Assembly: GCF_020520425.1 (NCBI RefSeq)
Contig: NC_079492.1
Span: 114,239,157 to 114,303,156 of the forward strand
Source: Spinacia oleracea
Lineage: Eukaryota > Streptophyta > Magnoliopsida > Caryophyllales > Amaranthaceae
Reading direction: 5' to 3'
Length of the DNA: 64,000 nt
Positions 14,955 through 60,551 of the stretch are shown one piece after another. The first letter of the stretch is position 1; each line of letters opens with the position of its first letter. A model generated the notes under the pieces. The model was not told where the DNA came from, did not search any database, and saw only the letters and a list, made by a program, of their open reading frames with translations. The position numbers and the translations under genes were made by a program.

Positions 14955-17900
14955 ATTTGAAACATAAAATTAATTGTATTAAACATGGAAAGACTTTAAA
15001 ATACTCATTTAAGTTCATTAGATGAAAGTTGGGATAATCAATTAGCCATTTGGAAAAATTGATATTGACAGTTCCAACTATGGCCGTTTAACTTTTAAAG
15101 GTCCCAACTTTTGATTATTCTAGAGTGGTCTCAACTTTAAGGTGTGTTTTCCAAGAATGGTCCTTTGGTTTATTAAACTATTAATTAAGTTGATTTAAGC
15201 ATATCATACTGTTCCATTTACTTCATTTAATTAAAAAATATGATTATTGCACGAGAGATATGAGTGTTAATTAAGTTATTTAGCACTTAATTTTAACTAA
15301 GGGACCATTTTTGGAAAACACTCTCTATAGTTGGGACCACCCTGACATAATCAAAAGTTGGGACCTTTTAAAGTAAATCGGCCATAGTTGGGACCGATAA
15401 TATCAATTTTTCCTAGCCATTTTAGTCAAAATGTGACCGATAATGAACTAACGAGGCTTAAATGTGCATAACTTCACCAAAATGGGTGAGAATGTGTCTT
15501 TGAAACTTAAAACTAAGTGTATCAAACATGGAAAAACTTTAAAATACTCATATAAGTTCATTAGTTGAAAGTTGGGACCGAAATTAGCCATTTTAATCAA
15601 AATGTGGCCGATAATGATCAAACGAGTCTTGAATGTGCATAACTTCACCAGAATGGGTAAGGAATAGTATTTGAAACATAAAACTAAGTGTATTAAACAC
15701 GGAAAGACTTTAAAATACTCATTTAAGTTCATTAGTTGAAAGTTGGGACCGAAATTAGCCATTTTAGTCAAAATGTGACCGATAATGAACTAACGAGGCT
15801 TAAATGTGCATAACTTCACCAAAATGGGTGAGAATGAGTGTTTGAAACATAAAAATAAGTGTGTTAAACATGGAAAGACTTTTAAATACTCATATAAGTT
15901 CATTAGTTGAAAGTTGGGACCGAAATTAGTCATTTTAGTCAAAATGTGGCCGATAATGATCAAACGAGTCTTAAATGTGCATAACTTCACCAAAATGGGT
16001 AAGAATTAGTATTTGAAACATAAAAATAAGTGTATAAAATATGGAAATACTTTAAAATACTTATTTAAGTTCATTAGTTGAAAGTAGGGACCGAAATTAG
16101 CCATTTTAGTCAAAATGTGACCGTAATGAACTAACGAGGCTTAAATGTGCATAACTTCACCAAAATGGGTGAGAAAGAGTGTTTAAAACATAAAAATAAG
16201 TGTATTAAACATGGAAATACTTTAAAATACTCATATAAGTTCATTAGTTGAAAGTTAGGACCGAAATTAGCCATTTTAGTCAAAATGTAGCCGATAATGA
16301 CCAAACGAGTCTTAAATGTGCATAACTTCACCAAAATGGGTAAGAATTAGTATTTGAAGCATAAACATAAGTGTATCAAACATCTAAAGACTTTAAAATA
16401 CTTATTTAAGTTCATTAGCTGAAAGTTGGGACCGAAATTAGCCATTTTAGTCAAAATGTGACCAATAATGAACTAACGGGCTTAAATGTGCATAACTTCA
16501 CCAAAATAGGTGAGAATGAGTGTTTGAAACATAAAACTAAGTTTATTAAACATGGAAAGACTTTAAAATACTCATGTAAGTTCATTAGTTGAAAGTTGGG
16601 ACCGAAATTAGACATTTTAGTCAAAATGTGGCCGATAATGATCAAACGAGTCTTAAATGTGCATAACTTCACCAAAATGGGTGAGAATTAGTATTTGAAA
16701 CATAAAACTAAGTGTATCAAACATTTAAAGACTTTAAAATACTTATTTAAGTTCATTAGTTGAAAGTTGGGACCGAAATTAGCCATTTTAGTTAAAATGT
16801 GACCGATAATGAACTAACGAGGCTTAAATGTGCATAACTTCACCAAAATGGGTGAGAATGAGTCTTTGAAACATAAAACTAAGTGTATTAGGAATGGAAA
16901 TGCCTTAAAATACTCATATAAGTTCATTAGTTGAAAGTTGGGATCGAAATTAGCCATTTTAGTCAAAATGTAGCCGATAATGATCAAACGAGTCTTAAAT
17001 GTGCATAACTTCACCAAAATGGGTAAGAATTAGTATTTGAAGCATAAACATAAGTGTATCAAACATCTAAAGACTTTAAAATACTTATTTAAGTTCATTA
17101 GTTGAAAGTTGGGACCGAAATTAGCCATTTTAGTCAAAATGTGACCAATAATGAACTAACGGGCGTAAATGTGCATAACTTCACCAAAATAGGTGAGAAT
17201 GAGTTTTTGAAACATAAAACTAAGTGTATTAAACATTGAAAGACTTTAAAATACTCATGTAAGTTCATTAGTTGAAAGTTGGGACCGAAATTAGACATTT
17301 TAGTCAAAATGTGGCCGATAATGATCAAACGAGTCTTAAATGTGCATAACTTCACCAAAATGGGTGAGAATTAGTATTTGAAACATAAAACTAAGTGTAT
17401 CAAACATTTAAAGACTTTAAAATACTTATTTAAGTTCATTAGTTGAAAGTTGGGACCGAAATTAGCCATTTTAGTTAAAATGTGACCGATAATGAACTAA
17501 CGAGGCTTAAATGTGCATAACTTCACCAAAATGGGTGAGAATGAGTCTTTGAAACATAAAACTAAGTGTATTAGGAATGGAAATACTTTAAAATACTCAT
17601 ATAAGTTCATTAGTTGAAAGTTGGGACCGAAATTAGCCATTTTAGTCAAAATGTAGCCGATAATGATCAAACGAGTCTTAAATGTGCATAACTTCACCAA
17701 AATGAGTAAGAATTAGTATTTGAAACATAAAAATTAGGTATCAAACATGGAAAGACTTTAAAATACTTATTTAAGTTCATTAGTTGAAAGTTGGGACCGA
17801 AATTAGCCATTTTAGTTAAAATGTGACCGATAATGAACTAACGAGGCTTAAATGTGCATAACTTCACCAAAATGGGTGAGAATGAGTTTTTGAAACATAA

Positions 17901-18140
17901 AACTAAGTGTATTAAACATGGAAAGACTTTAAAATACTAATATAAGTTCATTAGTTGAAAGTTGGGACCGAAATTAGCCATTTTAGTCAAAATGTGGCCG
18001 ATAATGATCAAACGAGTCTTAAATGTGCATAACTTCACCAAAATGGGTGAGAATCAGTATTCGAAACATAAAAATAAGTTTATTAAACATGGAAGGACTT
18101 TAAAATATTTATTTAAGGTCATTAGATGAAAGTCGGGACA
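14946..18140. repeat. 171-bp satellite-like tandem array
   Basis: About 17 head-to-tail monomers of roughly 171 bases. Each carries AAATGTGCATAACTTCACCA and GTTCATTAGTTGAAAGTTGG. Two monomer types alternate (GAACTAACGAGGCTT and GATCAAACGAGTCTT), giving a ~342-base dimer. The block 16345-17027 repeats as 17028-17710 with a 683-base period (four monomers). The first monomer is broken by the insertion at 15052-15413. Confidence 0.9.
15052..15413. mobile_element. Mutator-type MITE in the satellite array
   Basis: Inverted repeats of more than 100 bases start GGAAAAATTGATATT and end AATATCAATTTTTCC. The 9-base duplication TAGCCATTT flanks it (15043-15051 and 15414-15422). It is a separate family from 8482-8834 although both begin GGAAAA. 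Confidence 0.85.
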
Positions 18141-18560
18141 GAAATTAACCAATCTTATTATTATACGGTTCATTATTTCTTTGTTATGAACAATTAAGTC
18201 TAATTTATTGTACGGTTCAATATTTATAATATAACTAAAGTATATATATATATTTTTTGATGGTCGATCTTCTTAAGGTTTTCAATAATACGAGGGAGCG
18301 GCTTTTCACCTTTGAGGAGATAGATGAAGTTCGAGAAATGTTCGCAAACTTCATTACCAGTGACTGTCTTTGATATTTTCTTGTACTGAATCTTAAATTG
18401 TGGATGCTAGTTTTCATATGATTGTAATGTAATCGACTTTTATATTTATAATTATATAAAATTATCTATATAATTGGATACTTTTTAAATGACGTATGGA
18501 GGTTAATTAGTGGCGTGGTCCAATTGTAATATGTAGCAGGGAAATCGGTTATATAACAAA
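18141..18560. other. CACTA interior right of the satellite
   Basis: AT-rich. A 44-codon plus-strand frame (18259-18393) ends LFTFEEIDEVREMFANFITS before a stop and has coding-like composition. I do not recognise it. It may be another captured 3' exon. Confidence 0.3.
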
Positions 18561-19835: not shown

Positions 19836-20163
19836 TACTCCCTCCGTCCCTTAATACTCGCACCACTTTTCTTTTCGGGTTGTCCATTAATACTTGCACC
19901 GTTTCTATAAATGGAATTTTTTTACCAATATTACATTATTTCTCACACTTACCTACTAACCACCTACACCCCTACTCCCAACAAAAAATCATTTAAAAAT
20001 TCACATCCCTCACTCCACACTCTCCACCCCTTACACATTCCCATTAACTATGTTAAAAAAATACCACACTATAAAATAACTCATATTAAATTAATAAGTC
20101 AATTCAAGTATCTTAAACTCCACACCGATCAAACCGATGCGAGTATTAAAGGACGAAGGTAGT
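19836..20163. mobile_element. Stowaway-like MITE
   Basis: It starts TACTCCCTCCGTCCCTTAAT and ends with the complement, slightly decayed (ATTAAAGGACGAAGGTAGT). The ~20 bases to its left look like the right end of a different MITE. Confidence 0.75.
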
Positions 20164-20605: not shown

Positions 20606-20635
20606 GTAGGAAAACGCAATTTTTTGGCTGCCCTC

Positions 20636-20734
20636 GGGTACAGCCAAGCTGGCTGTACCCCTAATCAAACGACGTCGTGTGATGCGGGTACAGCCAGCGC
20701 TGGCTGTACCCCCCCCCCCGAAAACGACGTCGTT
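20636..20734. repeat. Left palindromic terminus
   Basis: Palindromes at 20636-20660 (11-base arms, 3-base spacer) and 20686-20711 (13-base arms, no spacer) share GGGTACAGCCA. ACGACGTCGT (20669-20678) and AACGACGTCGTT (20723-20734) follow each. A run of C (20709-20719) adjoins. Confidence 0.85.
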
Positions 20735-20876
20735 CAGCGTACTTTTATCCCCTTCCTGAGTTTCCTAAGTTTTCTAACTCTTTTTTTTTTGTTTCTTCTT
20801 CTTCAAGTTGCGATATATCTTGTTCTTAGGGTTTATTTCGATTTGTTCTCTCCTATTTTCTCTCTCCTCTGTTTCC

Positions 20877-22811
20877 ATGGAGCTCGCAGTTATGGAAAAT
20901 TCTGAAGCTCTTTTCGAATCTAATTCTGGAATTTTAAGTACATTGATGTCAGAACGTAAGTTTATATTTTTATTATTTTCATTTATTTGTTTTGATTTCA
21001 ATGTTTTTGGTTTTGATTGTTTTCGATTTTATATTTTGATTTTGGATAAAATGTGTTTAGAATTTTGTTATTTTTCGTGTTTTCGCTGGATATTTCGATT
21101 TTGATTTGTTTCTTTGTTTTTGTTTTCTGCAGATTTTCTTATTTTTTTGCAATTGTACGTTATTTTTTGTTCGATTTTTATTCATAATTTTATTTATTAT
21201 CAATGTATATAATGTTAATGAATTTTTAGCTCAGATCTTATGAACATTATATATTTTGATAAAATACATATTATGTTATGAATTTTTGAATTGTTCTGTC
21301 CCAAAAGAAAATATTGGTCAATGGTCATTGTTTACTTATAACATTCTTAACAAATATATGAATATTCAGTTCAAGGAAATTGAACATTGTCTACAACAAT
21401 AATGAACATTTTATTGAATGACTTTGAATGTTACGTATATTAGTAATGAACATTGCATTGAAATATAATGAATATTTTTTATTTAGATAATGAACATTGT
21501 ATTGTATTATATTGAACTTTCTATTAAGAGTTATTGATCATTACCTATGTTACAATGAACATTTAATTCAAGTATTTTATCATTATTTATAATTTATAAT
21601 GAACATTTTATTTAATGATTTTGAATATTACCTATGTTCGTAATTACCATTTTATTTAAGTACATTGAACAACACCTAATTAAGGAATGGACATTCTATT
21701 TTTAACATTACTATTTTAATATTGAATATTTTATTTAAGGATATTGAACATTTCAATTTTCCATTGTTAGTTATTATTGAAATTGATCATTCACTATTTT
21801 AACATTGAACAATCACTAGTTTAACATTGAACATTTCTTCCTTTCGCAGTGAATAAGGAAGTAAGTCTTTTTGTTGAAGGGTCAGAATCTATGTTAATGA
21901 TGAAGGAAGTTAAAAATGAAGACGAAGCTTATGATTTGTATAATGAATATGCTTTTAGTAAAGGTTTTGGTATTAGGGTTGGGAAAGGTCGGAAGCGTCA
22001 AAACAGTGAATTTTATACTATGAAACGGTTCTTGTGTAGCTGCGAAGGGGTTAAAGATGAAAAAAGGAAGAGAACAAGGTCTTATGCTAGATTGGATACG
22101 CGTACTGGGTGTACTGCTTTTGTTCAGTTTTCTATTGGTAAAGATGGTGTATGGACGGTTGTGAATCATAATATGATTCATAATCATGTTATGGTTCCTC
22201 TAAATAAGAGGCATTTGATAAGATCACAAAGGAAGGTTAGTAAGGAGGCTCTTTACTTTATGTCTACTTTAAAAGCTAGTGGTGTTAAAGTGTCTGATAC
22301 CTTGAGGGTTTTGAGGAAAGAAGTAGGCGGATCACCTATGGTCGGTTTTACAGCTAGTGATGCTTATAATGCTTTATCACGTGCAAAAGCTAATAAACTT
22401 GAAGGTCATGACTGTCATCAGTTAATCAAGTATTTTGCTCAGAGAAATTCCAGTGAAGAAGGTTTTTATTATGACTTTGAGCTTAGTGAAGAAGAGGGAC
22501 TTTTAAGTTTCTTTTGGCGTGATGGTCGGATGAAGAGAGATTATGATTATTTTAGGGATTTATTGGTTTTTCATACTCTTTTGTCTTCTGCATCAGCTGC
22601 AGGTGCCATTTTCTCAGCTTCTATTTGTGCTGCAACGGCAGCTATATCTATCCTTTCGTCAGCTTCTTTGCTGGCCATTGCAGCAGCAGCAGCTGCAGCT
22701 ACCATTTGTGCAGCCTTTTTTTTGTTGTTCTGCTTTATGCTCTTTGCTAAAAGTTGTTTCAGTAAGTTGTTGCCCCTGATAAACAAAGAACAAAAAAATT
22801 CAATAAATTAA
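20877..22811 (+). pseudogene. Truncated FAR1-type MULE transposase
   Basis: Exons 20877-20955 and 21850-22811 join in phase 1 (C|TG gives Leu). The first ATG follows a CT-rich leader. Residues ~45-155 form a FAR1 DNA-binding domain with EAYDLYNEYAFSKGFGIR, CSCEG, TRTGCTA and the HNH zinc ligand. Then comes the spacer that precedes the MULE domain (FFWRDGRMKRDYDYFRDLLVF). At about 22570 homology stops, exactly where the first catalytic Asp (normally in FDTTY) should follow. The remaining 80 residues, rich in Ala and Ser, are just the antisense of the minus-strand gene's last exon. DNA binding could survive; transposition activity could not. Intron 1 (20956-21849) is full of TGAACATT words. Confidence 0.8.
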
Positions 22812-25610
22812 ACCGACAAATGTGTGATCATATATATGAAAACGTATGAAAAATATCATTTATATATAAAGTTACAAATAAAGAAGAAAGAAAGAGTTGT
22901 TCAATAATAAAGAATAAACCATAAAAAATAAAGAACAAACAATTCCAAATGAATGAACAAACAATGAAACCATTATGAACAAATATGCAGAAGAAAATGA
23001 ATTGTAAAAAAATGCCAAATTCTACCTATTTTTTGTAGCAATCTTTCTTTGTACCAAAGATTTTGAAGACTCTTCTTGATCTATTTCACTGTTATTTGAA
23101 TAATATATTTTTAATATACATGCTATTTTATATAAAAATTATGAACGATTCAACTAAATTGAAAATTCATATTAATTTTTACCTTGATGTTTTTTGAACT
23201 TCAGGCTGTGATTTTGATGAAGATTTCTTATCTCCTTCACTGTAATTTGAATAGTAAGGTGTAAACGTACAAGTCATTTTATATAAAATTAATAAAAAAT
23301 TATTTAAAAAGCTAAAAATGGACATTATATTATACTGTGAAATTTGAACCCATGACTAAAAACTTGAACATTAGGGTAAAAACTTTGAACATAAAGGTAA
23401 TAAACTTTGAACAAAATGGAGAAAAGTTTTAAACATAATAGGTAAATTTGAACATTTGACTAAAAACTTTGAACATAAAGGTTAAAAACTTTGAACAAAA
23501 TGGAGAAAAGCTTTGAACATATAACCAAATAGTTTGACTGAGATATAAACAGAAAGAAAGGCTTTGAACATATGACTAAAAACTTTGAACATAAAGGTTA
23601 AAAAATTTGAACGAACAATGGAGAAAAGCTTTGAACATATAGGAGAAGCTTTAAACATAATAAGTAAATTTTTTGATCATAATTCATAAAAACTTTGAAC
23701 ACAAGGAGGAAATTTTTTGAACATAATTCATAAACGCAGATGAGATAAACTTTCAATTTATGAATGAATATTAAGCCATACACAATTGAACAAATAACTT
23801 TAAGAAAAAGAACATTTATATTACATGCATAATGTAGTAAAAAAATGGACATTATATTATACCTCAATGGTTTTTGAACTTCTGTCTCAGAAGTTGTACA
23901 TGCCTTCCCATCTCCTTCACTGTATTTTTTATTAATATGATGTTAATGCACACATTATATTATATAATATTAAAAATCATTCAAATTTAATAAAAAATTT
24001 ATATTATCTTATACCTTAATACTTTCTGAACCTCTGGCTGGGATTTAGTTGGTCTTCGCTTAAATTTGAGTATTAACCTTTGTGGTTGTTCTCTAGATTT
24101 TATAAATGTATAACTAATGAGTGTCCAGAGAAAAATTCAGTTTGAAGAAATGAATATTTTATGAAAACAAAATGAACATTTAACATAAAAACAGTTATCA
24201 TGAGTTTTAATAATAAAAAGGACTGAAGAAATGAACAAAAGTTCAAACATTGAAATTATGAATATAGTAGTTGAAATAATTGAAGATTTCTAAACCAAAC
24301 TTAGTATATCAGAGTAAACGAACATTTTATTAAAAAGAATTGAATATTTTAGCAAAATAAATTGAACATTTTTCGCAGATGAGTGTAGATTTAAAATTTT
24401 ACTGTAGAAAAATTGAATATTAGTACAAAGAACATTTCCATTATGAATATAATACTAGAAATAATTCATAGTATATTCCAAAACAAAACTCTGTAACAAA
24501 ATATATTCCAGAAAAAAATTGAACATTTTATAAAAAGAAAATGAACTATCAAAATATATTGAATATTTTATAAAAAGAAAATGAATATTTTATCAAAATA
24601 TATTGAACATTTTGGAGACAGACAGTTACCATGATTTCTGGATTTAGTTTTTGGACATATGAATGAACAAATGTTCAAATCATTTTAATTATATATATAA
24701 CATTCGAAATAATTCAGTATTCCTAAAGAAAATCTCAGTAGACCAAAAAGGATATCCAGTTTGGAATATATGATCATTTTCCAAAAAGATATTGAATATT
24801 CTGCTATAATCAATTGAACATTTTGCATAAGATAGTTATCATGAGTTCTCAAGACTTAATTTATTTTACAGAGGAATGAACAAAACTCAGTGGACCAAAA
24901 TGAATATCTAGCTTAAACAATATGAACATTTTACACATAAATTGAACATCTAACATAAGATTAGAAAAACTCAACAAAAGTTCATCACATTTACATTATT
25001 ATAATAATATTTAAATTAATTGACATTCCCAATCCAAATTTTAATCATCAATAAGATTATTGTTAAATCTCTATGAATATGAACAATGTATCATTAATTT
25101 GTATTTGTATTGTACCAAATGTCAAAAACGGCACATTCGCAAATTAAATAGAAATAGATATTCAAAAACATAAAAATTACTTACTGGAATGTGTCTATTT
25201 GCTTTTCAGCTTCAATTTCCTTCTCAATTTCGTATTTTCCAGTTCTATGATCAAAAAACCAATAGTTAGGGTTTGGTTAAATCATCACGCAACGAAAATG
25301 AACATTAAATTAAAAACGATTGAACATTAACATAAAATTGATTGAACATATGTAAATTAAAATGAATTTATCTACGAAAACTTAAAATAACTTACTCCTT
25401 CATGTCTGGTTGCTTTGCATTCCCGATTTTTTGCTCTTCACTAGATCTTCCAGTCCTATAGCCAAAAAATCAGAAGTTAGGGTTTGCTAACATCATAAAC
25501 CAAAAAATTGACCATTATAATGAAATTATTTGAACATTATAAAGAAAAATACTGAAAATAACTGAATTAAACAAATATTTAAGTAATAAAGCAGTTGCAT
25601 GTTCGAAATC
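21250..25610 (+). repeat. GAACA-word field
   Basis: Dozens of copies of TTGAACATT, TTTGAACATAAAGG, TGAACAAA and similar words fill the introns of both convergent genes. Almost all carry GAACA on the plus strand, so they are sense in one gene and antisense in the other. Exons are free of them. Confidence 0.8.
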
Positions 25611-25807
25611 TGAAATTAAATTACATACGTTTCCTTTTTTTCTTTCGGCATCTTCGTTTTTCTGAAATAGAACGAAAATAAGCAAAATTAGATTTCATTT
25701 TAGTTCGAAAATAAAATCGAAACATCAGAATCAATTGTAATTACTTACTTTTTGCTTTTCGGTGGATTTTGAAGCTTGTTCATGTCAATTTCGTCACGAA
25801 CATCCAT
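22571..25807 (-). CDS. Nine-exon gene of unknown function in the element
   Basis: Exons on the minus strand: 25807-25749, 25661-25629, 25455-25396, 25244-25185, 24092-24015, 23919-23863, 23239-23183, 23088-23026 and 22775-22571. Each is bounded by AG and GT and the joined frame has no stop. The product has 223 residues. All eight introns are phase 2, so each inner exon is a multiple of 3. Exons 6 and 7 are duplicates (SEGDGK... and SEGDKK..., both 57 bases, both ending EVQK plus two residues), exon 5 ends alike (PEVQKVL), and exons 3 and 4 are also alike (TGRSSEEQKI / TGKYEIEKEI, both 60 bases). The product is Lys/Glu-rich and probably disordered up to residue ~155, then an Ala-rich likely helix (AAAAAAAMASKEADERIDIA). 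The stop codon's last base lies on the junction with the transposase, so the true C-terminus may be lost. I recognise no domain. The convergent layout recalls maize mudrA/mudrB, but no mudrB similarity is evident. Confidence 0.65.
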
Positions 25808-26155
25808 TTTTCTCTTTTTTTTCAGTAAAAAGAAGTCACAGATTTCTTCTCTTGATATTTTGTGGAAATTCAGCTTTAATAATGAAGATTAGTAGCGGTT
25901 TGAAGAGAGAGAAAGTTGATTGAGGTGGTTGCAGGAAGTTTAATGGCGGTTTTAAGAGAGAGAAAACAACGAAGTAGAAGAGTGGGCAGAGGAGAGAGAA
26001 AATTTTTTGCGTGCTGAGAATTTGAAAGGTTTTCGAAATGATTTTCCTCTTTTTTTTTGTATTTATAGGCGATTCTTGCGCGAAATTTATTCCCATCACG
26101 TGCCACAATATTTGCTTACCCGCGCGTGGGTTCCACGCGCTTAACAATGGCAGGG

Positions 26156-26245
26156 GGTACAGCCAAGTTGGCTGTACCTGGGTATTTTACCCAAACGACG
26201 CTGCGCGTCGTTTTGGGCAGGGGGTACAACCATCTTGGCTGTACC
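26156..26245. repeat. Right palindromic terminus
   Basis: Palindromes 26156-26178 and 26223-26245 carry GGTACAGCCA / TGGCTGTACC (one arm mutated to GGTACAACCA). AAACGACG...CGTCGTTT lies between them (26193-26212). The layout mirrors the left end. Confidence 0.85.
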
Positions 26246-26288
26246 TGGGTATAGCAATTAGGGATATGTAGGAAAAAGTAATTGTGTG

Positions 26289-26620
26289 TACTCCCTCCGT
26301 CCCGGAATACTCGACCCGGTTTGACCGGCACAGAGTTTAAGGAATTTGAATTGACTTATTTAATTTAATAGGTAGTAGTTGATAGTGGGGTATTATTTTA
26401 ATGTAGTTAGTGGGAGGTGGGTTAAGAGGTGGGGTTGGGGGAGAGTAGGGGTTGAATTTTTAATTATTTTTTGTATGGAGTAGGGGGTGGGTGGGTTAAT
26501 AGGGGTGAAGTGAGAAATGATATAATATTGTTAGAATATTTCCATTTTTAGAAACAGGTCAAGTATTAAGGGACGGCCCGATAAGGAAAACATGTCAAGT
26601 ATTCCGGGACGGAGGGAGTA
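26289..26620. mobile_element. Stowaway-like MITE
   Basis: TACTCCCTCCGTCCCGGAAT at the left and the complement at the right, with an inner diverged repeat (CAAGTATTAAGGGACGG). Same family as 34886-35215 and 49058-49389. Confidence 0.85.
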
Positions 26621-26671
26621 AATAATAAGCTAGCAATAATGATTTTTGGAAAATGATAAAATTATGGTTTA

Positions 26672-34142: not shown

Positions 34143-34885
34143 TAATACATGCAAAAGAGAACAGCAACTTTTCGGTAGGACCGCCTCACGGCGCGTGTAG
34201 GAAAGACCAGGTAAGACAATCACGCGCGCGTATCTTCACGCGCGGTATAAATTGACTTTTTTTTCTCTCTCCTCTCATTTTCTGTAAACTCCATCTTCTC
34301 TCCTCTCATCGTTCTCCCTGTAACTCAAAACCCCTAAACTCCTCCTTCGCGATCTCTTCTTCTCCTCCGCCGCAAACCCTAGTTTCTTTCGCCGCGATTT
34401 CTACCACAAAACGAATTCCATGGATCTCTCACCGTCGTATCCACATGAAAACTTCAAGATTGATTATGGTTGGTGGTCGAGGTTGACGAATTCTCTTCTA
34501 CGGCGGTCTATGAGTAGTTCTGGAAGGTGCTCTAAATTCGATGCTGGTGTCATTGGTGTTTTGCGAGGAGGGTTGATTCGAATCTGGGCATGGTTGTTGT
34601 GTTTGATTGGCGAGGGAGATGGTGTTGTGTTTGGGTGTGCTGAAATTAGGTTTTTTTATTATAGATTTTTTATCTGCCTTTGATTCGTTGCGGTGGTTGT
34701 GGTTTTTAATTTAGTTGAATTCAGTCACGCCACCCATCACCGGTGGATTCGATGATGGTGAATTAGGCGGCGGAAAGGAAGTCGGAGTGAGGAATGGAGT
34801 CACAAGAAAAACCACTGAATGTAGATGTATTTCAGTATATTGAAATTTCTCCTGTAGTTTTTTTTTTATAGAATTTTGTTTTAGT

Positions 34886-35215
34886 TACTCCCTCCGTCCC
34901 GGAATACTTGACCTGTTTTCCTTATCGGGGCGTCCCTTAATACTTGACCTGTTTCTAAAAATGGAAATATTCTAACAATATTATATTATTTTACTCCACC
35001 CCTATTAACCCACCTACCCCCTACTCCATACAAAAAATAATTAAAAATTCAACCCCTACTCTCCCCCAACCCCACCTCTTAACCCACCTCTCACTAACTA
35101 CATTAAAATAATACCCCACTATCAACTACTACCTATTAAATTAAATAAGTCAATTCAAATCCCTTAAACTCTGTGCCGGTCAAACCGGGTCGAGTATTCC
35201 GGGACGGAGGGATTA
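34886..35215. mobile_element. Stowaway-like MITE
   Basis: Inverted-orientation relative of 26289-26620. Left end TACTCCCTCCGTCCCGGAAT; right end GGGACGGAGGGATTA. Confidence 0.8.
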
Positions 35216-35479
35216 TAATTTTTTTATATTTAGTTATGAAATAAAGTGTTTTAGTTATCTTTTTGCATTTTATTTTTGGTTATAAGCAACAAATCATCAA
35301 TGTCTTTTGATGTTAATTTTCTGAATCTGAAAAAATCCACTAAAACTCAAAAAAATTTAACTAAAACACAAAATAAAGAAACTAAAACCGCAGAAATCTT
35401 AACTAAAGCTCAAAAAAAAAAAACTAATACTAAATTTTTTAAACTAAAAATATATAACTAGAACTCAATTTTTTTTTTT

Positions 35480-36880
35480 AAAAATCCTAACTAAAACTTC
35501 AAAAACAATAACTAAAGCTCGAAAATCCCTAACTAAAACTCAGAAAATCTTAATTGGTCTCATTGCTTTAACTAAATCATTTCATTGCTTAATTAATTGG
35601 TTCTATTGCTTTAACTAAATCGTTTCGTTGCTTAACTAATATGTTTCATTACTTAACTAATTGAATTCAAACTTAACTGATTGGTTTCATTGCTTAACTA
35701 ATTGAATTTCAAACTTAACTAATTGTTTCGATTGCTTAACTAATTGAATTTCAGGTTTACCTAATTGGTTTCGTTGCTTAACTAAATCGTTCCATTGTTT
35801 AACTAATTGGTTTCATTGCTTAACTAATACGTTACATTACTTGACTAATTAAATTTCATGTTTAACTAATTAGTTCATTGCTTAACTAATTGGTTTCATT
35901 GCACAACTAATTAGTTCCATTGCATAACTAATTGGTTCAATTGTGTAACTAATTGGTTTCATTGATTAACTAATTGAATTTCAAACTTAACTAATTGGTT
36001 CAATTGCTTAACTAATTGAATTTCATGCTTAACTAATTGGTTCAATGCTTAACTAATTGGTTTCAATGCTTAACTAATTGGTTTCAATGCTTAACTAATA
36101 GGTTACATTACTTGACTAATTGAATTTCAGGTTTAACTAATTAGTTCAAATTCTTAACTAATTGGTTTCATTGCTTACCTAATTGAATTTCAAACTTAAC
36201 TAATTGGTTCGATTGCCTAACTAATTGAATTTCAGGTTTACCTGATTGGTTTCGTTGCTTAACTAAATCGTTCCATTGTTTAACTAATTGGTTTCATTGC
36301 TTAACTAATACGTTACATTACTTGACTAATTAAATTTCATGTTTAACTAATTAGTTCCTTGCTTAACTAATTGGTTTCATTGCATAACTAATTAGTTCGA
36401 TTGCATAACTAATTGGTTCAATTGTGTAACTAATTGGTTTCATTGATTAACTAATTGAATTTCAAACTTAACTAATTGGTTCAATTGCTTAACTAATTGA
36501 ATTTCATGCTTAACTAATTGGTTCAATGTTTAACTAACAGGTTACATTACTTGACTAATTGAATTTCAGGTTAAACTAATTAGTTCCAATGCTTAACTAA
36601 TTGGTTTCATTGCCTCACTAATTAGTTTCATTCCATCACTAATTAGTTCAATTGCTTACTAATTGAATTTCAAGCTCAACTAATTGATTCCATTGTTTAA
36701 CTAAACGGTTTCATTGCTCAACTAATTGAATTTCCGTCTTAACAAATACTTTATTTATATCTGTAAACTTATAAATTTTATCGCTTAACTAATTGGTCTC
36801 GGTGCTTAAATAATTGACTTCAATGCTTAACTAATTTACTCCATTGCTTAACTAATTGAATTTTATATTAACAAAAAAAA
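35480..36880. repeat. CTTAACTAATTG-word field
   Basis: About 60 degenerate copies of CTTAACTAATTGGTTTCATT and CTTAACTAATTGAATTTCA run head to tail. A block of about 481 bases is itself duplicated (35761 matches 36242). Confidence 0.85.
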
Positions 36881-38219: not shown

Positions 38220-39170
38220 CTATGTTCTATATTTATTCAACAATGTTCTAAATTTGCTAACTCATGTTCTAAATTTATTCAACGATGTTCTAAATTTATT
38301 TAACCATATTCTAAATTGGTTCAACCATGTTTTAAATTTATTCAAGCATGTTTTAATTTTATTCAACCATGTTTTAAAATTTTAACTTCATGTTCTAGAT
38401 TAATTCAAGCATGTTCTAAAATTATTCAACCATGTTCTAAATTCTTAACCTCATGTTCTAGATTAATTCAAGCATGTTCTAAAATTATTCAACCATGTTC
38501 TAAATTTGTAAGCTCATGTTCTAAATTTATTCAAGCATGTTCTAAATTTATTCAACAATGTTCTAAATTTATTCAACGATGTTCTAAATTTATTCAACGA
38601 TGTTCTAAATTTATTCAACGATGTTCTAAATTTATTCAACGATGTTCTAAATTTGTTCAACCATGTTCTAAATTTATTCAAAGATGTTCAAAATTTATTC
38701 AACAATGTTCTAAAGTTAGAACATGAGAATGTAGTCAACACATATACATATATACATGCATGTTCTAAACTTTTAAGCTCATGTTCTAAATTAATTCAAA
38801 CATGTTCTAAAACTATTAAACATGTTATAAAACTATTCAAGCATCTTCAAAATTAATTCAAGCATGTTCTAAATTTATTCAATCATGTTCTAAATTTTCA
38901 AGCTCATGTTCTAAATTTATTCAATCATGTTCTAAATTTATTAAATGATGTTCTAAATTTTTTCAAGCATGTTCCAAATTTATTCAAGCATGTTCTAAAT
39001 TTATTCAACCATGTTCTACATTTATTTAAACATGTTCTAAATTCATTCAAACATGTTCTAAATTTATTCAAGCATGTTTTAACTTTTTCAACGGTGTTCT
39101 AACTTTATTCAAGCATGTTCTAAATATATTCAAGCAAGTTCTAAAATTTATTATAGCATGTTTTAATGCT
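38220..39170. repeat. ATGTTCTAAATTTATTCAA array
   Basis: Roughly 45 copies of an 18-19 base unit in one orientation. The most regular part is 38520-38720. The open frames over it are products of the repeat. Confidence 0.9.
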
Positions 39171-48745: not shown

Positions 48746-49057
48746 ACCATTCAACGAGATTGAGCATCAAACAAAGATCTAAGGATTATTAAATTAGAGA
48801 GTCACTACAAGAAGATTAATTATAATTGAAAATAAAATTACCATCAAGGGTGTACAACCCTAAGACCTATTCACAGTGTAGCATTAAATGCATTTCACAT
48901 GATTCCAAGTTTTATAATCTTTTGTTCCAAGAAAAACAACACTCATTCCACAATTGTCATTGTAAGTTGAAATGTCTCAATGTCTCAATTCTAATTACAC
49001 TCAAGTATTAGCAGAGATAACCGGAACTTAACCGGGAATTAGATTGATAACTACTAA
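48746..49057. other. AT-rich spacer
   Basis: Nothing recognised. Confidence 0.4.
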
Positions 49058-49389
49058 TACTCCCTCCGTCCCGGAATACTCGATCCGGTTTGACCGGCAC
49101 AGAGTTTAAGGGACTTGAATTGACTTATTTAATTTAATAGGTAGTAGTTGATAGTGGGGTATTATTTTAATGTAGTTAGTGGGAAATGTGTAAAGGGGTG
49201 GGGTTGGGGAAGAGTATGAGTTGAATTTTTAATTATTTTTTGTATAGAGTAGGGGGTAAATGAGTTAATAGGGGTGGAGTGAGAAATAATATAATATTGT
49301 TAGAATATTTCCATTTTTAGAAACAGGTCAAGTATTCAGGGACGGCCCGATAAGGAAAATAGGTCAAGTATTCCGGGACGGAAGAAGTA
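49058..49389. mobile_element. Stowaway-like MITE
   Basis: Relative of 26289-26620 with the same orientation. The right end has decayed to GGACGGAAGAAGTA. Confidence 0.8.
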
Positions 49390-54600: not shown

Positions 54601-57418
54601 CTCCATAATTTAAGCATTTAATAAGACTATGAGGACTTGAGGAGTACCTTAATCTAATATTGCAGGGAATCATGTGAAATTGTGAACAGTGACGATTGAT
54701 TCATTAGGAGTTTGGCCCAAAGTGTTTAGAGGTGATCATATCCACCCAAGTTATAAGTAATAAGGTCCTCTGTTGTCCAGAACCCATGAGGACGCTTATC
54801 CTGCAGAAATTAAAGGATCGGAGAGCTTCCACAATAACAATGAACGCTTTAGTGACATCCTTGGTAACTTGTAATACTTAGCAAAGGGTTCTTAAGAAGT
54901 TAAGTGATAAAGTGAACTGAGAAATCGTCGAGGGAAAAGTCTATAACGAAAAGCACTATGCCTAAATCAAACTATATAGCTGGCTAGCCTGGCTCTATCT
55001 CAGGGCATTGGGTATTCGGGTGTATGGAGAATCATAAACACAATTGGGATTGTGGAAAGCCAGTTGGTCCACCACTAAGCCAACCACACTCTTTATCCCA
55101 CATTTCGAGTAAGTGCTGACTGCTTACCCATCTACGGTGGTGGCTAGAAGCATTCATGCATAAACTTAGTCACTATATACAACTCAACTGAAGTATAACC
55201 ACAAAACTACAAATATTGATCAGGAATTACCACGCCCAAAATAAATTAACATAAAGGATCCAAAATTGAGATAACAAATTAGGATATATAAAGCATACCA
55301 GAATGGCAAGTAGATAATCTGATAGCAATATCCTTAAGTCTCTGTATCTTATTGGTGGTCCATGTAGTATCAAAAAGGTTGTCACAATTATAATCACCTT
55401 TCACGTTAAGACACAGAAGAGCGTTTTCGCATGCCTGATAAGAACAGTGAGAAGTAATATAATTATATAAATACCGTAGATGATCAGGTTAAAAACAATG
55501 AGATTAAACAGATAATTCCTTAAGATACTTGAAGCAGAAGTTTTGATACAGCTAATGAACCAGCATCGTGAAATTATGTTCTTTAAGCAAAATAGATGGT
55601 ACGATTTTCATGAAACCACCCAAGTTGATAATTCAAACTAAAATTTCATACTTCTAAGTGAACGGAACAATTTAATAGAAATCCATTGAAGTGCCATTAC
55701 TCCCTCTGAGGGAAAAAACAACACATGAGCAAACCACCAATATATATGCCCCAGCAATATCAAGGACAGTCTTTTCAATATAAACCAAACAATCAATCCA
55801 GTACCCATTAAAAAAAATCAAAGCCAGCCATCCAGCGGTTCTTTTACAGTTGGCTGGAAGGACAGAAATCAAATGTGTGCGCCTTACTCCTTCAAGATAA
55901 GACTCATAAGAGGTATTTCCTATTTGACCCGCTGGAAAAGCATTAACACGCTCATACCTGAGGGTAGTTTAGTGAGGCTGTCCATTAAATCCATCATAAA
56001 ACTGCGCTATAAAATGGCCATTGTGATTAAAGTGGACTAATGTGGTGGCTAAAACACTTGCCTAATGTGAGGCTTCCAGTGGATGTTTGTTGTTCATGTT
56101 TGTACGGATTACAACATAATAAACAGATACTTTTCTGGGACATGACCTGATCCTACAAGTTTTATTTTACACATCTGATGGCCAAAAATCAGCACTAGTC
56201 TACAGAAAGACGGTCTTAAAGATAACAATAAAAAACAACCGGTACATGCTCAACTATCGGTCCGTGACTCCATGACGGTTCCATTTTGTAGCGAATAAGT
56301 GGCAGTCAGAAATGCTTTAATCACCATCAAGAGTCCGAGACTCCTAACAGAAGATTCCATTTCATAAACAATCAGAACCATACAGCTAGCAATTAAGCGA
56401 AAATACCTTCACAGTGACAGAGTAAAATTCATTGTTAAAAGCATCTTCAGCAAACTTCATCCACTCACTGCATGAAACTCGTAATTCCGGATGACTAATA
56501 GTCCACGAATCACGCAGAACCAAACCTTCATATCTCACAGCCAAGCAACTCTACATTTACAACAACATTGTGTGAACGTAGAACATCAATTCCAGCACAA
56601 TGGAGCAAAATTTATCATCGTCGTCATCCAAGCATGTCAATATCAACAAAACCGAAACCGCATAAATGTTTGCTACAATTCAGACCTAGCACTTTCATCG
56701 ATTCTGTGTCCTATCATCAACAAAACATTCAAATAAGAATAAATACTGAAAAATCGAAAAATTAAACGCCAGAGCAAAGTGTGACAAATTTTCAGAAAGA
56801 GAGAGAAAGACCTAGTATCGAGGACATGTAGAACACCAATTCCAGTAGGACGAGTACTAAAATTCCACAATTAGACAAAATTAAACATTGTCATTATCCA
56901 TAGCAGGTTAAAATCGACAAAATAATGACCGCAAAATGTTTTGCTACAACTCAGACCTAGCATTTTCATCGATTTTGTGTCAGATAATCATCCAAAAATT
57001 CAAGTGAAATAACTGAAAAATCGAAAAATTGGAGCAATTTATGACGAAAATTGAGATAGAAAAAAGTACCTCAAGATCATCGACGATGGCAAAAGCGCGA
57101 ACGAGGAAGTCGAGAATCAGTAACTTATGTTCAACGGGTTTCTCAGAAGCTTCGCGGATGGCAATCAAAGATTCTGACCTTAGAAATTCTTTTAATTCAC
57201 TTCGAAATTCGAGCAATAATTTCACGTCCTTTGATGATAAAATCAACTCCAGAATTCGCAGTGTAGAATCATCAAATCTGTTGCCAAAATTCAGGACAAA
57301 TTTTCATGTAAGATAAAGGTTGCAATAGAGTAATAATCTGATAATGTTGTTTTGAATTTTGAAGGAGAAATAACCTTCTCAGTTTGATTTGGGAGCAGAA
57401 GAGAGAAACGTCTGCCAT
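51688..57418 (-). CDS. DFO: DOUBLE-STRAND BREAK FORMATION (DFO)-like protein
   Basis: Five exons, 57418-57375, 57277-57070, 56550-56407, 55434-55299 and 51842-51688, join without stops and encode 228 residues. It starts MADVSLFCSQIKLRRFDDST, goes on with LELILSSKDVKLLLEFRSEL, KFAEDAFNNEFYS and ACENALLCL, and ends with a basic segment (EYTRRKTLSIKQ ... KQQNIRNFLRLKNQ). I know this pattern as a small plant-specific family that I link to Arabidopsis DFO, needed for meiotic double-strand breaks. The name comes from memory and should be tested; that this is a real gene is well supported by five consistent exons. No catalytic motif is seen. Intron 4 is 3.46 kb, swollen by insertions. Confidence 0.72.
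52984..53238. mobile_element. MITE in DFO intron 4
   Basis: GGTGTGTTTGGATA at the left pairs with TATCCAAACAAAGTG at the right. The interior is a G/A-rich half and a C/T-rich half that pair (GGGAAAAGAAGGGAAG / CTTCCTTCACTTTCTC). Confidence 0.6.
53730..54560. other. Possible retroelement remnant in DFO intron 4
   Basis: A GC-richer island (53980-54270) lies between AT-rich flanks with a TATAAATAGG box (54325) and a long T-rich stretch. It resembles LTR and leader DNA, but no paired LTR or coding domain was found. Confidence 0.25.
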
Positions 57419-57629
57419 TTTAGGAGGGAAGAAAATGCGGAAGTTTTTGGGAATTGATACTTGTGAATTCTTAATTTTGAATTGTGAATCAGTTGCCGTC
57501 GTATAAATATGTTCCGGTGTGCCGGCCTCAGTGCGTCCAGAAGTGATGTAGGCCAAGGCCCAAATCATGACTTGGACTTTGGACAATAAGGCCTCTGTTC
57601 TCTTCCCCTTATTTTAACTTTATTTCAGG

Positions 57630-57845
57630 TCTGATAAGATAAAATAATGGCCAATAAGATAAGATAAGTTCAGGGTCAATAAGATAAGATAAGATAAGAT
57701 AAGGTAAATATTACATAAGGTTATACTATAAGTTTCAATATGATAAGGGTCAATAAGATAAGATAAGGGTCAATAAGTTCAGATAAGATAAGATAAGGGT
57801 CAATAAGATAAGTTCAGGGCCAATAAGATAAGATAAGTGAAATTC
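57630..57845. repeat. GATAAGATAAG minisatellite upstream of DFO
   Basis: About 25 copies of GATAAG in runs, split by GGTCAATAA or TTCAGGG(T/C)CAATAA. It begins some 210 bases upstream of the DFO start codon. Confidence 0.85.
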
Positions 57846-57898
57846 AGGTGAAGAGAACACTACCTAATAAACCTATCAAGTTATCACATGACACATAG

Positions 57899-58671
57899 TC
57901 CCTGTTTGGTTATGAGCTGTTAGTTGTTAGCTGATAGCTAATTTGATAACTGTTAGCTTTTAGCTATTTGCATTAGCTAATTTGACTAGCTGTTTGCATT
58001 AGCTAATTTGACTAGTTGGTTGCATTAGCTGTTTGTGTAAAAGTGTTTGGTAAATTAGCTGATAGCTGTTAGCTGTTTAATGTGTAAAATGACCATTAAG
58101 AACATTGACATACTTTGTTTCTTATTAATATTAGACAAATATTTTTATTGTGTTAATTTTTTCTCTCTATATTTTTCTAATAAACATTGACTAAATAAAA
58201 TAATTTTTTTTTAAAATTACTCTTTATTTAATTTTTTTAATAATATATATTTTTCAAATAGATAAATATTACTAATAAAATTTAGTATGATTGCAATATA
58301 CTTCAATTGCTTCAAAGTACTAATATAAAATTTATTACAACAAAAAACGAATCTAGTAAATATGGTGAAATGAAAAAGAAAGTGTGAGTAACGTTTTTAG
58401 GAGAAAAATATGTAGGGTACCAAGGTTGATATATAGTGGTTGAAATAATAGACAATAGTAGGACAAAATAGTCATTTTCATCCACTTTCTCAAACCTCTA
58501 GTTGCAAAAAGCTCTTATATTGAGCCTTTTCAAAATTAGCTTTTTCACCCCAAAACTCTCTTCCAATCTCTCCTAACCAAACACTCTCAGTTAGCTTTTT
58601 CTAAAGGTCAAACCTCTAAATCACACAAAAAGCTCTTTTTTCCTCAAACCTCTCCTAACCAAACACCCCCA
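57899..58671. mobile_element. Repeat with GTTTGGTTA ends
   Basis: CCCTGTTTGGTTA at the left and TAACCAAACACCCCC at the right are inverted copies. The left part is built of GTTAGCTGATAGCT words. An AT-rich centre separates it from a right part with AGCTCTT words. Confidence 0.55.
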
Positions 58672-58898
58672 TACTCTTTAATTTTTATTTTAGAAGTTTC
58701 ATCTTAACCGACATGAGTATTAAAGAAGCATAGTTAAATTTGATATAATAATGCAAGTGGAGTAGTAGATAATAAAGAAATACTTGTATAAAAAAACAAG
58801 TGGTGTGTTAAAGCAAATTTATTGACATGTGGTGGAATATCCCTATCAATAATTTTAGTTATCTAGAAAAAACAAAAATGGAATTATTTATGATTTAA

Positions 58899-59192
58899 GT
58901 GGGCTAGTTTGGTTGACATTCTAATGCATGGGAAGTCTATTTTCCTAGGAAGTGAAGTGCAAAGTAATTGTTTGGTTGACATGAGCATGGGAAGTAAAAC
59001 TTCCTATGAAGTTCTATTTCCCCCCAAAATGGAGGAAGTTGCTTACCTAGTCTCCCCTAGGTAAGTAGAACTTCCCATGGAATTTCTAACTTACTATGCT
59101 CAACCAAACAAGAATACTTAATTCCTAGAAATTAAAACACATGGGAAATGAAAATATAAGATATAATTTTCCAAGTGCAACCAAACATCACC
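58899..59192. mobile_element. Tourist-like MITE
   Basis: GTGGGCTAGTTTGGTTG at the left and CAACCAAACATCACC at the right, with TAA on both sides (58896-58898 and 59193-59195). This is the target duplication of PIF/Harbinger MITEs. Confidence 0.6.
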
Positions 59193-59339
59193 TAATAAAC
59201 AATTGGGAAGTGGGTGTAAAAGTAACCAAAAATGAAATAGTGACTCATAAAAAATACGGCAAAAAGTAGTAATTGTGACTCCATAAATATATGGAGGGAG
59301 TATTACGATCCTTAGGGTTGTTTTTCTACCGGTACGTCT

Positions 59340-59510
59340 TTGTAATAAATAATGAGGTATATTTATATTGGTTTAGTGATAAAGAATATGGGTTGAAAAC
59401 AATAATAGATCATAGGTTCGAGTCTCCTCACCCATTTCTACTCTGATTTTTTAATGCACTGATGGGGTTACGATTTAAGAATGTAAATCGATGTGTTGAT
59501 TAAAAAAGCA
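59340..59510 (+). mobile_element. SINE-like tRNA-derived fragment
   Basis: TTGGTTTAGTGATAAAG resembles a pol III A box and AGGTTCGAGTCTCCTCACC a B box, about 50 bases apart as in tRNA-derived SINEs. No tail or duplication could be set. Confidence 0.4.
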
Positions 59511-60551
59511 TGTTCAAAACAGGAAAGCAAATAATTTTAAGGGTATATTCGGTATCAATAATTTTAAGCCAATAATGTCCTGATTTGAGGATCCAAGGGG
59601 ACATTCGATTGGAGGTCTTCTGGAAAGGGAAAGGTAATCAACTACCTTCATTCCTTTTCTTGTGGTTTGTTAGACCAATTCAATCATTCCCTTTACCCAC
59701 TTGATCCCCCAACATCCCTCTACCATGATCCCCCCCCTCCAAGGAATCACCGTAACCCCCAAACTCCTCTTCACCCAACCAATTTAACTACCACTTTGAC
59801 CGTCCTTGACCAACACACCACCACCTGTCCAAGGTCCCAACACCTGCGCCGCCCTCACCAAAACCCTCCAAAATCCGTTGAACCTACTTACAATACCGAA
59901 CCACCACCAACCACCACTCGATCTGCAGCCACCGAATCGTACAACCACCACCCAACAACCCTCTACAACCACTGAAACCATCATACCACAACCAAAACAA
60001 CCCTAATACCATCAAAATTATATTACCCAACACAAAAACCAAGCATCCAACCCCCGAAATGGACCCCAACTACCCAACGTAAACCCTAATCTCATCGGAA
60101 AACTAGATCTAAAAGAGAGATGAAAAATAGAGGAGAGATAAAGAGGCGGAAAGGGCGCGAGGCAGCAGTGGCCGGAGGCATGGGCGGCCTGTGAGGGAGT
60201 GTAATGGGCGGCGCTCGTAGGGGAGGCGATGGGTGGAAAACTCTTCTGCTTCTTCAGCGTTAAAGCGTAGTTGGTCGAAAAACGTTGAGGATGTTCCACC
60301 ATTAACGACATTTTTTAGCAAACTTAGTTCAATTTCTTAAAAGAATTACAACTCTCATAACAATGCTGGAAAACCTAGCAAAATTGCAACGAAATTAGAA
60401 TTTTGGGACGAAATCAGTGATGATTGCAGATTGAGGGAAGGGATGGTAGGAAGAATGAATTTCATTTTAATTTTTGCAAACCAAACTTGCAATAATATAG
60501 TGATTTCCTTTCCATTCTTTTCTAAACCCTTTTTTTATTCCATTTCCTTTA
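59511..60551. other. Intergenic DNA with a C-rich block
   Basis: 59690-60070 is rich in CCACCACC and has open frames on both strands from composition alone. 60080-60300 is GC-rich and leader-like on the minus strand. No product recognised. Confidence 0.4.

Follow-up and report, generated by a model that had tools for sequence, protein, structure and literature searches.

Mini-exons inside a transposon

Why should a transposon carry, on its minus strand, nine small exons separated by introns of a single phase? This question is raised by a stretch of 64,000 nucleotides of the spinach (Spinacia oleracea) genome (contig NC_079492.1, hereafter the window), where an initial annotation, made from the letters alone, found these exons in a Mutator-like element (MULE). 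They make up the 5′ portion of the second gene in a family of FAR1-type MULEs, whose complete members measure about 16.4 kb, and the window holds a copy truncated by a deletion. In addition, it is probable, in our view, that the complete second gene codes for an anti-silencing protein of the VANC/KIU type, which would read arrays of the motif ATGTTCAA. VANC is one example in which a plant transposon reverses its own silencing in a sequence-specific manner.

The nine exons and their copies

The exons run from 25807 down to 22571 and give, with 672 nt in total, a single open frame of 223 amino acids. All eight introns are GT-AG and phase 2, and the inner exons measure 33, 60, 60, 78, 57, 57 and 63 nt; on all these points the initial annotation was accurate. 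For comparison, 20 copies of 9.9 kb were taken from the source genome of the window (894 Mb, 242 contigs), which was also the genome searched throughout. The exons could be placed in 19 of them, L023 being without the front part, and the frame is unbroken in 14 of these 19 (there is a stop in L015, L020 and L028, and a frameshift in L025 and L027). A lack of related copies and random frame breaks among them had been named as grounds for refuting the gene; with copies present and 14 of 19 in frame, this part of the test does not refute it. Canonical dinucleotides are found at all eight introns, as mapped, in 15 of the 19 copies, and a chance chaining of splice sites was rejected because of this preservation. 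The exceptions are the exon 2 acceptor in L015, the exon 1 donor and exon 7 acceptor in L024, the exon 7 acceptor in L025 and the exon 3 acceptor in L028. For instance, the odd acceptor of L024 is a 36-nt exon extension after a normal CAG, and L025 has a similar 36-nt gap. Length changes are divisible by three in 7 of 11 cases in exons versus 11 of 103 in introns, as counted in four diverged copies that are related and, thus, not independent.

Exon 7 and its flanks form an 87-nt unit, with an identity of 72% to the exon 6 unit and 63% to the end of exon 5, while the units of exons 3 and 4 match at 76% across 59 nt, mainly at the end of the preceding intron. Entire exon-plus-intron units were duplicated: exons 5 to 8 share one founder, and exons 3 and 4 a different one. 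The proposed exon copying holds in that exon-intron units repeat in the DNA, but calling them near copies was an overstatement at these identities. The uniform phase of the introns adds no extra evidence, because a copied exon must be symmetric for the frame to survive. The nine-exon product alone matches no Pfam family, and a captured host gene as the source of the nine exons was rejected for the lack of such a match, the one test made. It had been suggested that a captured host gene was growing by exon copying; the copying remains, and capture is needless to account for the nine exons.

A deletion separates the window copy from complete elements

Fifteen of the 20 copies align to the window at 98.0-99.4% as far as 22575 and then diverge from it; the other five, L023-L026 and L028, have lower identities of about 87-95%. 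When a 200-base query across this point was searched, its halves were found 10.7-10.9 kb apart in 12 other places, with a 3-base overlap, and joined in the window only (best 40 of 90 candidates scored). According to element lengths, about 10.7 kb were lost from the window copy. This deletion fuses the FAR1 transposase gene, just upstream of its catalytic domain, to the second gene within exon 9. The stop codon of the 223-residue frame lies 1 base past the joint, while the exon 9 frame is 299-306 amino acids long in 15 other places. As the frame runs on in other copies, the 223-residue chain was rejected as a complete protein. The window copy is, in fact, a non-autonomous derivative that has lost both the catalytic domain of the transposase and the conserved domains that the second gene encodes, and the 223-residue product is a fragment, the 5′ part of that gene. 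What had been taken for a whole protein of no known family is the variable N-terminal part of a larger one with DUF1985/PMD-like, DUF287-like and Ulp1 parts. Similarly, the idea of an accessory gene comparable to mudrB was right in that the gene belongs to a FAR1-type MULE and is convergent with the transposase gene, but the protein described was incomplete. At 22575-22811, the plus-strand FAR1 frame stays open beyond the joint into exon 9 antisense, adding an Ala-rich hydrophobic tail, so that both strands are open there.

The FAR1 gene of the window matches PF03101 (E=8e-19), and a profile search returned no MULE domain, which was lost by the deletion; its likeness to the complete relative ends where the minus-strand gene starts. 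In the relative L029, the profiles PF10551 (MULE, E=4.1e-29), PF03101 (FAR1, E=2.7e-19) and PF04434 (SWIM, E=0.00043) are all matched, the FAR1 and SWIM matches both above their cut-offs, as in FAR1/Jittery-type transposases. At 3393-4001 of L029 there is a frame in the FAR1 sense with a tandem peptide repeat (ATKAPS-like), a further repeat expansion in the element.

Both edges of the element were placed where same-genome copies stop, at 20615 on the left and at 26267 on the right (save 1-7 chance matches into the flank), and exact copies of GTAGGAAAA lie immediately outside. A second short derivative, L022, likewise has an exact duplication, with CACAAATTC on either side. Among 13 further copies with both ends read, the 9-bp target duplication is exact in 7 and present in 10 if an end shift of 1-3 bp is allowed; L010, L016 and L020 have none even with such a shift. 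Duplications of about 9 bp are those of Mutator-like elements. The length between both ends is 16.27-16.41 kb in 10 of the 13 copies and 22.1, 26.7 and 26.7 kb in the other three, presumably enlarged by insertions. Left ends, the window's included, were found in at least 40 places matching over most of the query length (best 40 of 383 candidates scored), and the exon 9 query in at least 43 (best 150 of 346). Copy counts are lower bounds, because only part of the candidates was scored in each search (150 of 346, 40 of 90 and 40 of 383). Since L009 to L014 differ from one another by only 0.1-0.4% across 3.7 kb, the family has spread recently.

No clear inverted repeat is seen at the tips of the element, but just inside each end there is a pair of palindromes around GGTACAGCCA-TGGCTGTACC; the pattern, allowing up to 3 mismatches, has 3 matches in the window versus 0 in 100 shuffles. 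Searches of viral contigs with the palindrome and with the protein gave nothing useful. The right end also carries an inverted pair, GCGCGTG / CACGCGC, which we take to be a FHY3/FAR1-type site; both sites are present in the window and in 8 of 9 examined copies (a single site in the ninth), and none is found within the first 300 bases of the left end.

Domains and selection in the complete second gene

The complete relative was read from L009 and L029, which are contiguous. This relative contains some 10 kb of additional sequence, and it ceases to resemble the window at 21881, inside the FAR1 gene. Here the second gene and the FAR1-MULE-SWIM transposase gene are convergent. The second gene continues through a 306-residue frame rich in Ala, Glu and Lys, which looks like a coiled coil when inspected by eye; the exon borders of this part of the gene were likewise joined by eye. 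This Ala/Glu-rich stretch is followed by a DUF1985-like part, a DUF287-like part and an Ulp1 peptidase domain, in that order. The DUF1985 match covers profile positions 18-140 of 141 (123 positions, with pieces joined by eye), and DUF287 is matched with E=0.0013 by its exon alone and 0.0058 in the joined piece. The Ulp1 match (PF02902, Peptidase_C48, E=4e-5) reaches 24.0 bits, over the cut-off of 20.7, and 19.4 bits without the preceding exon. Among solved structures, the best match to the Ulp1 stretch is SENP7, with E=0.59 only.

Selection was gauged by the ratio of nonsynonymous to synonymous differences per site (pN/pS), for which the close copies have too few changes. In exon A of the DUF1985-like part, pN/pS is 0.22 in L024, 0.15 in L025, 0.07 in L026, 0.15 in L028 and 0.13 in L023, with no length changes; here and below, the ratios of L026 and L028 come from pairwise alignments that pass through repeats, and those of L028 are the least reliable (16% diverged pairwise versus 8% in the multiple alignment, with exon B partly aligned). 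Exon B gives 0.17-0.51 where computable, with one single-base gap in L026. By contrast with these values, the Ala/Glu-rich stretch gives 0.78-1.02 in five diverged copies and exons 1-9 give 0.64-1.08 in four. Within the Ala/Glu-rich stretch, every length change in L023-L025 is divisible by three, which does not hold for L026 and L028. The DUF1985-like domain is under purifying selection, and conserved domains stand beside variable, repeat-bearing regions, as in VANC and KIU proteins.

One-strand motif arrays in non-coding DNA

ATGTTCAA is a short motif of the element's non-coding DNA that lies nearly always in one orientation. In the window element, TGAACA occurs 41 times on the plus strand versus 4 reversed, and none of the 41 falls in exons, though these make up 1472 of the 5653 bases. 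The window has 20 plus-strand copies of TGAACATT, every one inside the element, and 4 reversed copies, 1 of them inside. In the complete copy, TGTTCA is counted 89 versus 6 times (17 versus 13 in 40 kb of control window), with 2 of the 89 sites in the listed coding frames (4667 of 15200 bases), and counts of 37-58 versus 3-7 are seen in every one of 19 copies. Where neighbouring sites are at most 130 bp apart, 38 of 65 gaps are within one base of a multiple of 22; 22 bp correspond to two turns of the helix. A splicing signal was rejected, as the motif keeps the same orientation along the introns of both convergent genes. Part of intron 6 holds an array block between two 22-bp direct repeat copies, and 276 bp of this block resemble, at about 80%, an intron further along the gene. 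Neither L023-L026 nor L028 has the block (in L026 and L024 the intron was read without it); intron 6 is an example of how arrays move.

Related families of the same genome offer a comparison. Four closer ones, L042-L045, were picked by distance before their sequences were inspected, and three of them have a one-strand array, one opposing the gene. L042, 43% identical, has the same motif (TGTTCAA, 24 versus 0), L044 has TAGAACA, that is, ATGTTCTA (26 versus 0), and L045 has GTTCTTT (11 versus 0, with shuffles up to 7). In L043, both strands carry TGTTC, mainly as TGTTCTA (15 and 16 sites). A spacing of 22 bp is seen again in 9 of 19 gaps in L042 and 17 of 17 in L044. A core ATGTTC with altered last bases is the trace that a diverging recognition code would leave. 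Ten more distant loci, L030-L039, gave the best DUF1985 matches of the genome (150 of 893 candidates scored), all over the Pfam cut-off; they are apparently relatives and do not count as ten independent tests. Pooled, they carry TTGTAYT 146 versus 0 times in the gene's sense and TGTTCA 1 versus 3 times, while TTGTAYT is found 5 versus 11 times in the FAR1-type MULE under study. As for the wider DUF1985/PMD family L030-L041, L039 matches PMD with E=5e-21, and TTTCCGA stands at 28:0 pooled over the ten loci. Inspection by eye showed no recognisable transposase in this family, and retroelement-like frames close by, on the opposite strand.

A probable anti-silencing gene and its alternatives

The anatomy described above is observed, and from its likeness to VANC/KIU we infer that the complete gene may counteract silencing. 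The conserved core of the complete protein would consist of the DUF1985/PMD-like and DUF287-like parts and the Ulp1 domain, and the N-terminus built from copied exons would be its fast-evolving part. The complete protein is predicted to bind the ATGTTCAA arrays in the non-coding DNA of its own element, where sites are often spaced by two helix turns, and to remove DNA methylation from array-bearing copies. The window copy, with 41 sites and no working transposase, could still be opened in trans by complete copies. This reading would account for phase-equal, copied mini-exons in a fast-evolving, repeat-bearing N-terminus.

Several observations weigh against it. The DUF1985 match (E=0.0024) has 18.3 bits versus a cut-off of 35.1, and the DUF287 match, with the exon alone and 19 residues matched, 19.5 versus 21. 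VANDAL transposases are MuDR-like; in the profile search the MuDR N-terminal family was not returned, and the transposase is of FAR1, MULE and SWIM domains, not of the VANDAL type, so the element is not filed as a VANDAL. One-strand words also occur in 5 of 17 control windows outside the element (the satellite, the 21-bp arrays and 56951-60300); since ordinary tandem repeats produce them, a one-strand bias alone is not specific and is no proof. Among the related families, the array of L044 runs opposite to the gene's direction, and L043 has no significant strand bias (best 9 versus 0, with shuffles up to 10). The 22-bp spacing is absent in L045 (3 of 13 gaps) and in two TTGTAYT loci (1 of 11 and 0 of 9). 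In addition, L042 matches PMD (E=8e-6) rather than DUF1985, L044 matches PMD at 0.0083, and L043 and L045 match neither in the profile search. Finally, a 16-kb element of kochia with a FAR1-like gene showed no expression (PMC6808082).

The arrays could also be passive minisatellites, spreading by slippage and gap repair and read by no protein, with the exon copies as a by-product. Their 22-bp period, the 22-bp direct repeats that flank the intron 6 block and the resemblance of this block to another intron fit such an origin, as do the similar one-strand counts that other tandem repeats yield in the window. Passive repeats would hardly, however, place many single sites in one orientation over 15 kb of two convergent genes, spare the coding frames or retain the core TGTTC in related families, one-stranded in three of four, and we regard this explanation as unlikely.

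It has to be considered, too, whether it is the FAR1 transposase that binds the ATGTTCAA arrays, as part of transposition, with a separate role for the second gene, such as deSUMOylation of host proteins by Ulp1. The element does code for a FAR1 DNA-binding domain, like or altered arrays exist in related families, and the Ulp1 match is above its cut-off. Nevertheless, the sites are unidirectional along the element, not mirrored toward its two ends, and they lie in introns and not at the termini, where the right end has instead CACGCGC, presumably the FAR1/FHY3 site; the proposal is improbable on these grounds. A functional truncated 223-residue protein, as a mudrB-like accessory or a competitor of the complete one, is very hard to credit: its frame is open in the window and the closest copies compared, L021 and L022, are only 2 and 3 exon changes away, but the joint is found at one place only (best 40 of 90 candidates scored), leaving the fragment without visible spread, the stop comes just past the joint, and the conserved domains are gone.

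Returning to an anti-silencing second gene, the claim that it works like VANC/KIU is well supported as far as sequence can speak, while actual membership would stop short, the carrier being no VANDAL and DUF1985 and DUF287 scoring below their cut-offs. More tentatively, the FAR1-type MULEs of this plant may carry a VANC-type anti-silencing code of their own (core ATGTTC, family endings AA, TA and TT, and two-turn spacing in some), with N-termini diversified by exon copying and with deletion derivatives that persist as code-bearing targets coding for neither working protein.

Coordinates and other features of the window

Table 1. Features of the element, in positions of the window.
Feature	Position	Strand	Remark
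Internally deleted FAR1-type MULE	20615..26267	.	5653 bp; edges set by same-genome copies
Left target-site duplication GTAGGAAAA	20606..20614	.	9 bp
Right target-site duplication GTAGGAAAA	26268..26276	.	9 bp
Subterminal palindrome GGTACAGCCA-nnn-TGGCTGTACC, left end	20637..20659	.	pattern match
Second left-end palindrome	20687..20710	.	1 base longer; read in sequence and aligned
Subterminal palindrome, right end, inner copy	26156..26178	.	pattern match
Subterminal palindrome, right end, outer copy	26223..26245	.	pattern match
Inverted pair GCGCGTG / CACGCGC	26122..26140	.	right end
FAR1 transposase gene, exon 1	20877..20955	+	open frame, spliced to exon 2 from a GT donor
FAR1 transposase gene, exon 2	21850..22574	+	ends at deletion joint before catalytic domain
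TGAACA array, FAR1 intron 1	21241..21833	+	11 sites, one strand
TGAACA sites, second-gene introns	22954..25536	+	30 of 41; TGTTCA in the gene's sense
Deletion joint	22575..22577	.	3 bp common to both sides
Second gene, exon 1	25749..25807	-	splice-joined frame; placed in copies
Second gene, exon 2	25629..25661	-	splice-joined frame; placed in copies
Second gene, exon 3 (unit A)	25396..25455	-	splice-joined frame, copies and unit alignment
Second gene, exon 4 (unit A copy)	25185..25244	-	as exon 3
Second gene, exon 5 (unit B, end alike)	24015..24092	-	as exon 3
Second gene, exon 6 (unit B)	23863..23919	-	as exon 3
Part of intron 6 with motif-array block	23314..23862	-	between two 22-bp direct repeat copies
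Second gene, exon 7 (unit B)	23183..23239	-	as exon 3
Second gene, exon 8 (unit B, most diverged)	23026..23088	-	as exon 3
Second gene, exon 9	22571..22775	-	Ala/Glu-rich stretch begins; shortened by deletion

Elsewhere in the window, 38222-39166 is a 21-bp array of ATGTTCTAAATTTATTCAACC on one strand, with ATGTTCT 21 bp apart in 25 of 31 gaps; its motif is that of the related DUF1985 family L044, and it is perhaps part of another element's target array. Another 21-bp array, at 35551-36858, has the unit TAATTGGTTTCATTGCTTAAC and a higher-order period of 481 bp. A satellite at 15270-18144 consists of 16-17 copies of 170/171-bp units, whose identities suggest more than one unit type, and TAAGATA is counted 16 versus 0 times over the 3350-bp stretch 56951-60300. 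Copies of a short element with TACTCCCTCCGTCCC-like ends, which we take to be Stowaway-like, lie at 19836-20163, 26289-26625, 34881-35216 and 49057-49389; two flank the MULE, one on each side.

Comparison with known systems

In MuDR of maize, mudrA and mudrB are arranged convergently, and to our knowledge mudrB has neither DUF1985 nor Ulp1. The second gene of the spinach family is like mudrB in position, on which the comparison is based. MULEs that carry ULP1, those of the CUMULE/Kaonashi type, share an Ulp1 domain in a MULE with the spinach family. They are described from grape (PMC2528002) and from melon, Arabidopsis and rice (PMC13317346). As for mudrB, it stands beside the transposase gene and is apparently needed for integration (PMC6446971).

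As for FAR1 transposases, Jittery and other FAR1 MULEs share the N-terminal FAR1 and C-terminal SWIM domains; they are listed with one open reading frame (PMC6446971), whereas the spinach family has a large second gene. The FHY3/FAR1 mobile element of the kochia EPSPS locus is described as being of about 16 kb, with four predicted genes and FAR1 and SWIM in one of them; by this description it differs in its second gene, filed there under the ubiquitin-like superfamily (PMC6808082).

The closest likeness is to VANC and KIU of the Arabidopsis VANDALs, MULEs without terminal inverted repeats (non-TIR). Both sides have Ulp1 (in KIU) and variable regions of tandem peptide repeats, and the DUF1985 and DUF287 of VANC/KIU have putative counterparts in the spinach gene. 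Both also have short, family-specific motifs that share one orientation and lie in introns and elsewhere outside coding sequence, and tips without a clear terminal inverted repeat. A 2022 study of VANC in EMBO J reportedly describes a helical periodicity of the motifs and the gain and loss of domains. Weighing against the likeness, the spinach DUF1985 and DUF287 matches are weak, and the comparison is by profile and description; anti-silencing in the spinach family is put forward by analogy. VANC proteins combine DUF1985 and DUF287 with variable regions of tandem peptide motifs, and tandem repeats are linked to the exon-intron variation of their genes (PMC5735166). The target of VANC21 is a motif of nine bases, found at high density and with a single orientation in the introns and further non-coding parts of VANDAL21, and such motifs expand by tandem repeats and differ between families (PMC5735166, PMC10398659). 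KIU are VANC genes bearing Ulp1, which is regarded as an old capture (PMC13317346).

The spinach element differs in its convergent transposase, of the FAR1 type with SWIM, and in its motif, ATGTTCAA, with frequent 22-bp spacing. We found no open-licence paper that links DUF1985 or VANC with FAR1-type MULEs and, as far as checked, a VANC-type system on such an element is new. If true, the same anatomy would occur on another branch of MULEs, with several motif variants in one genome serving as natural variants for the co-change of protein and motif, and these family-specific motifs, with their known spacing, make the question directly testable.

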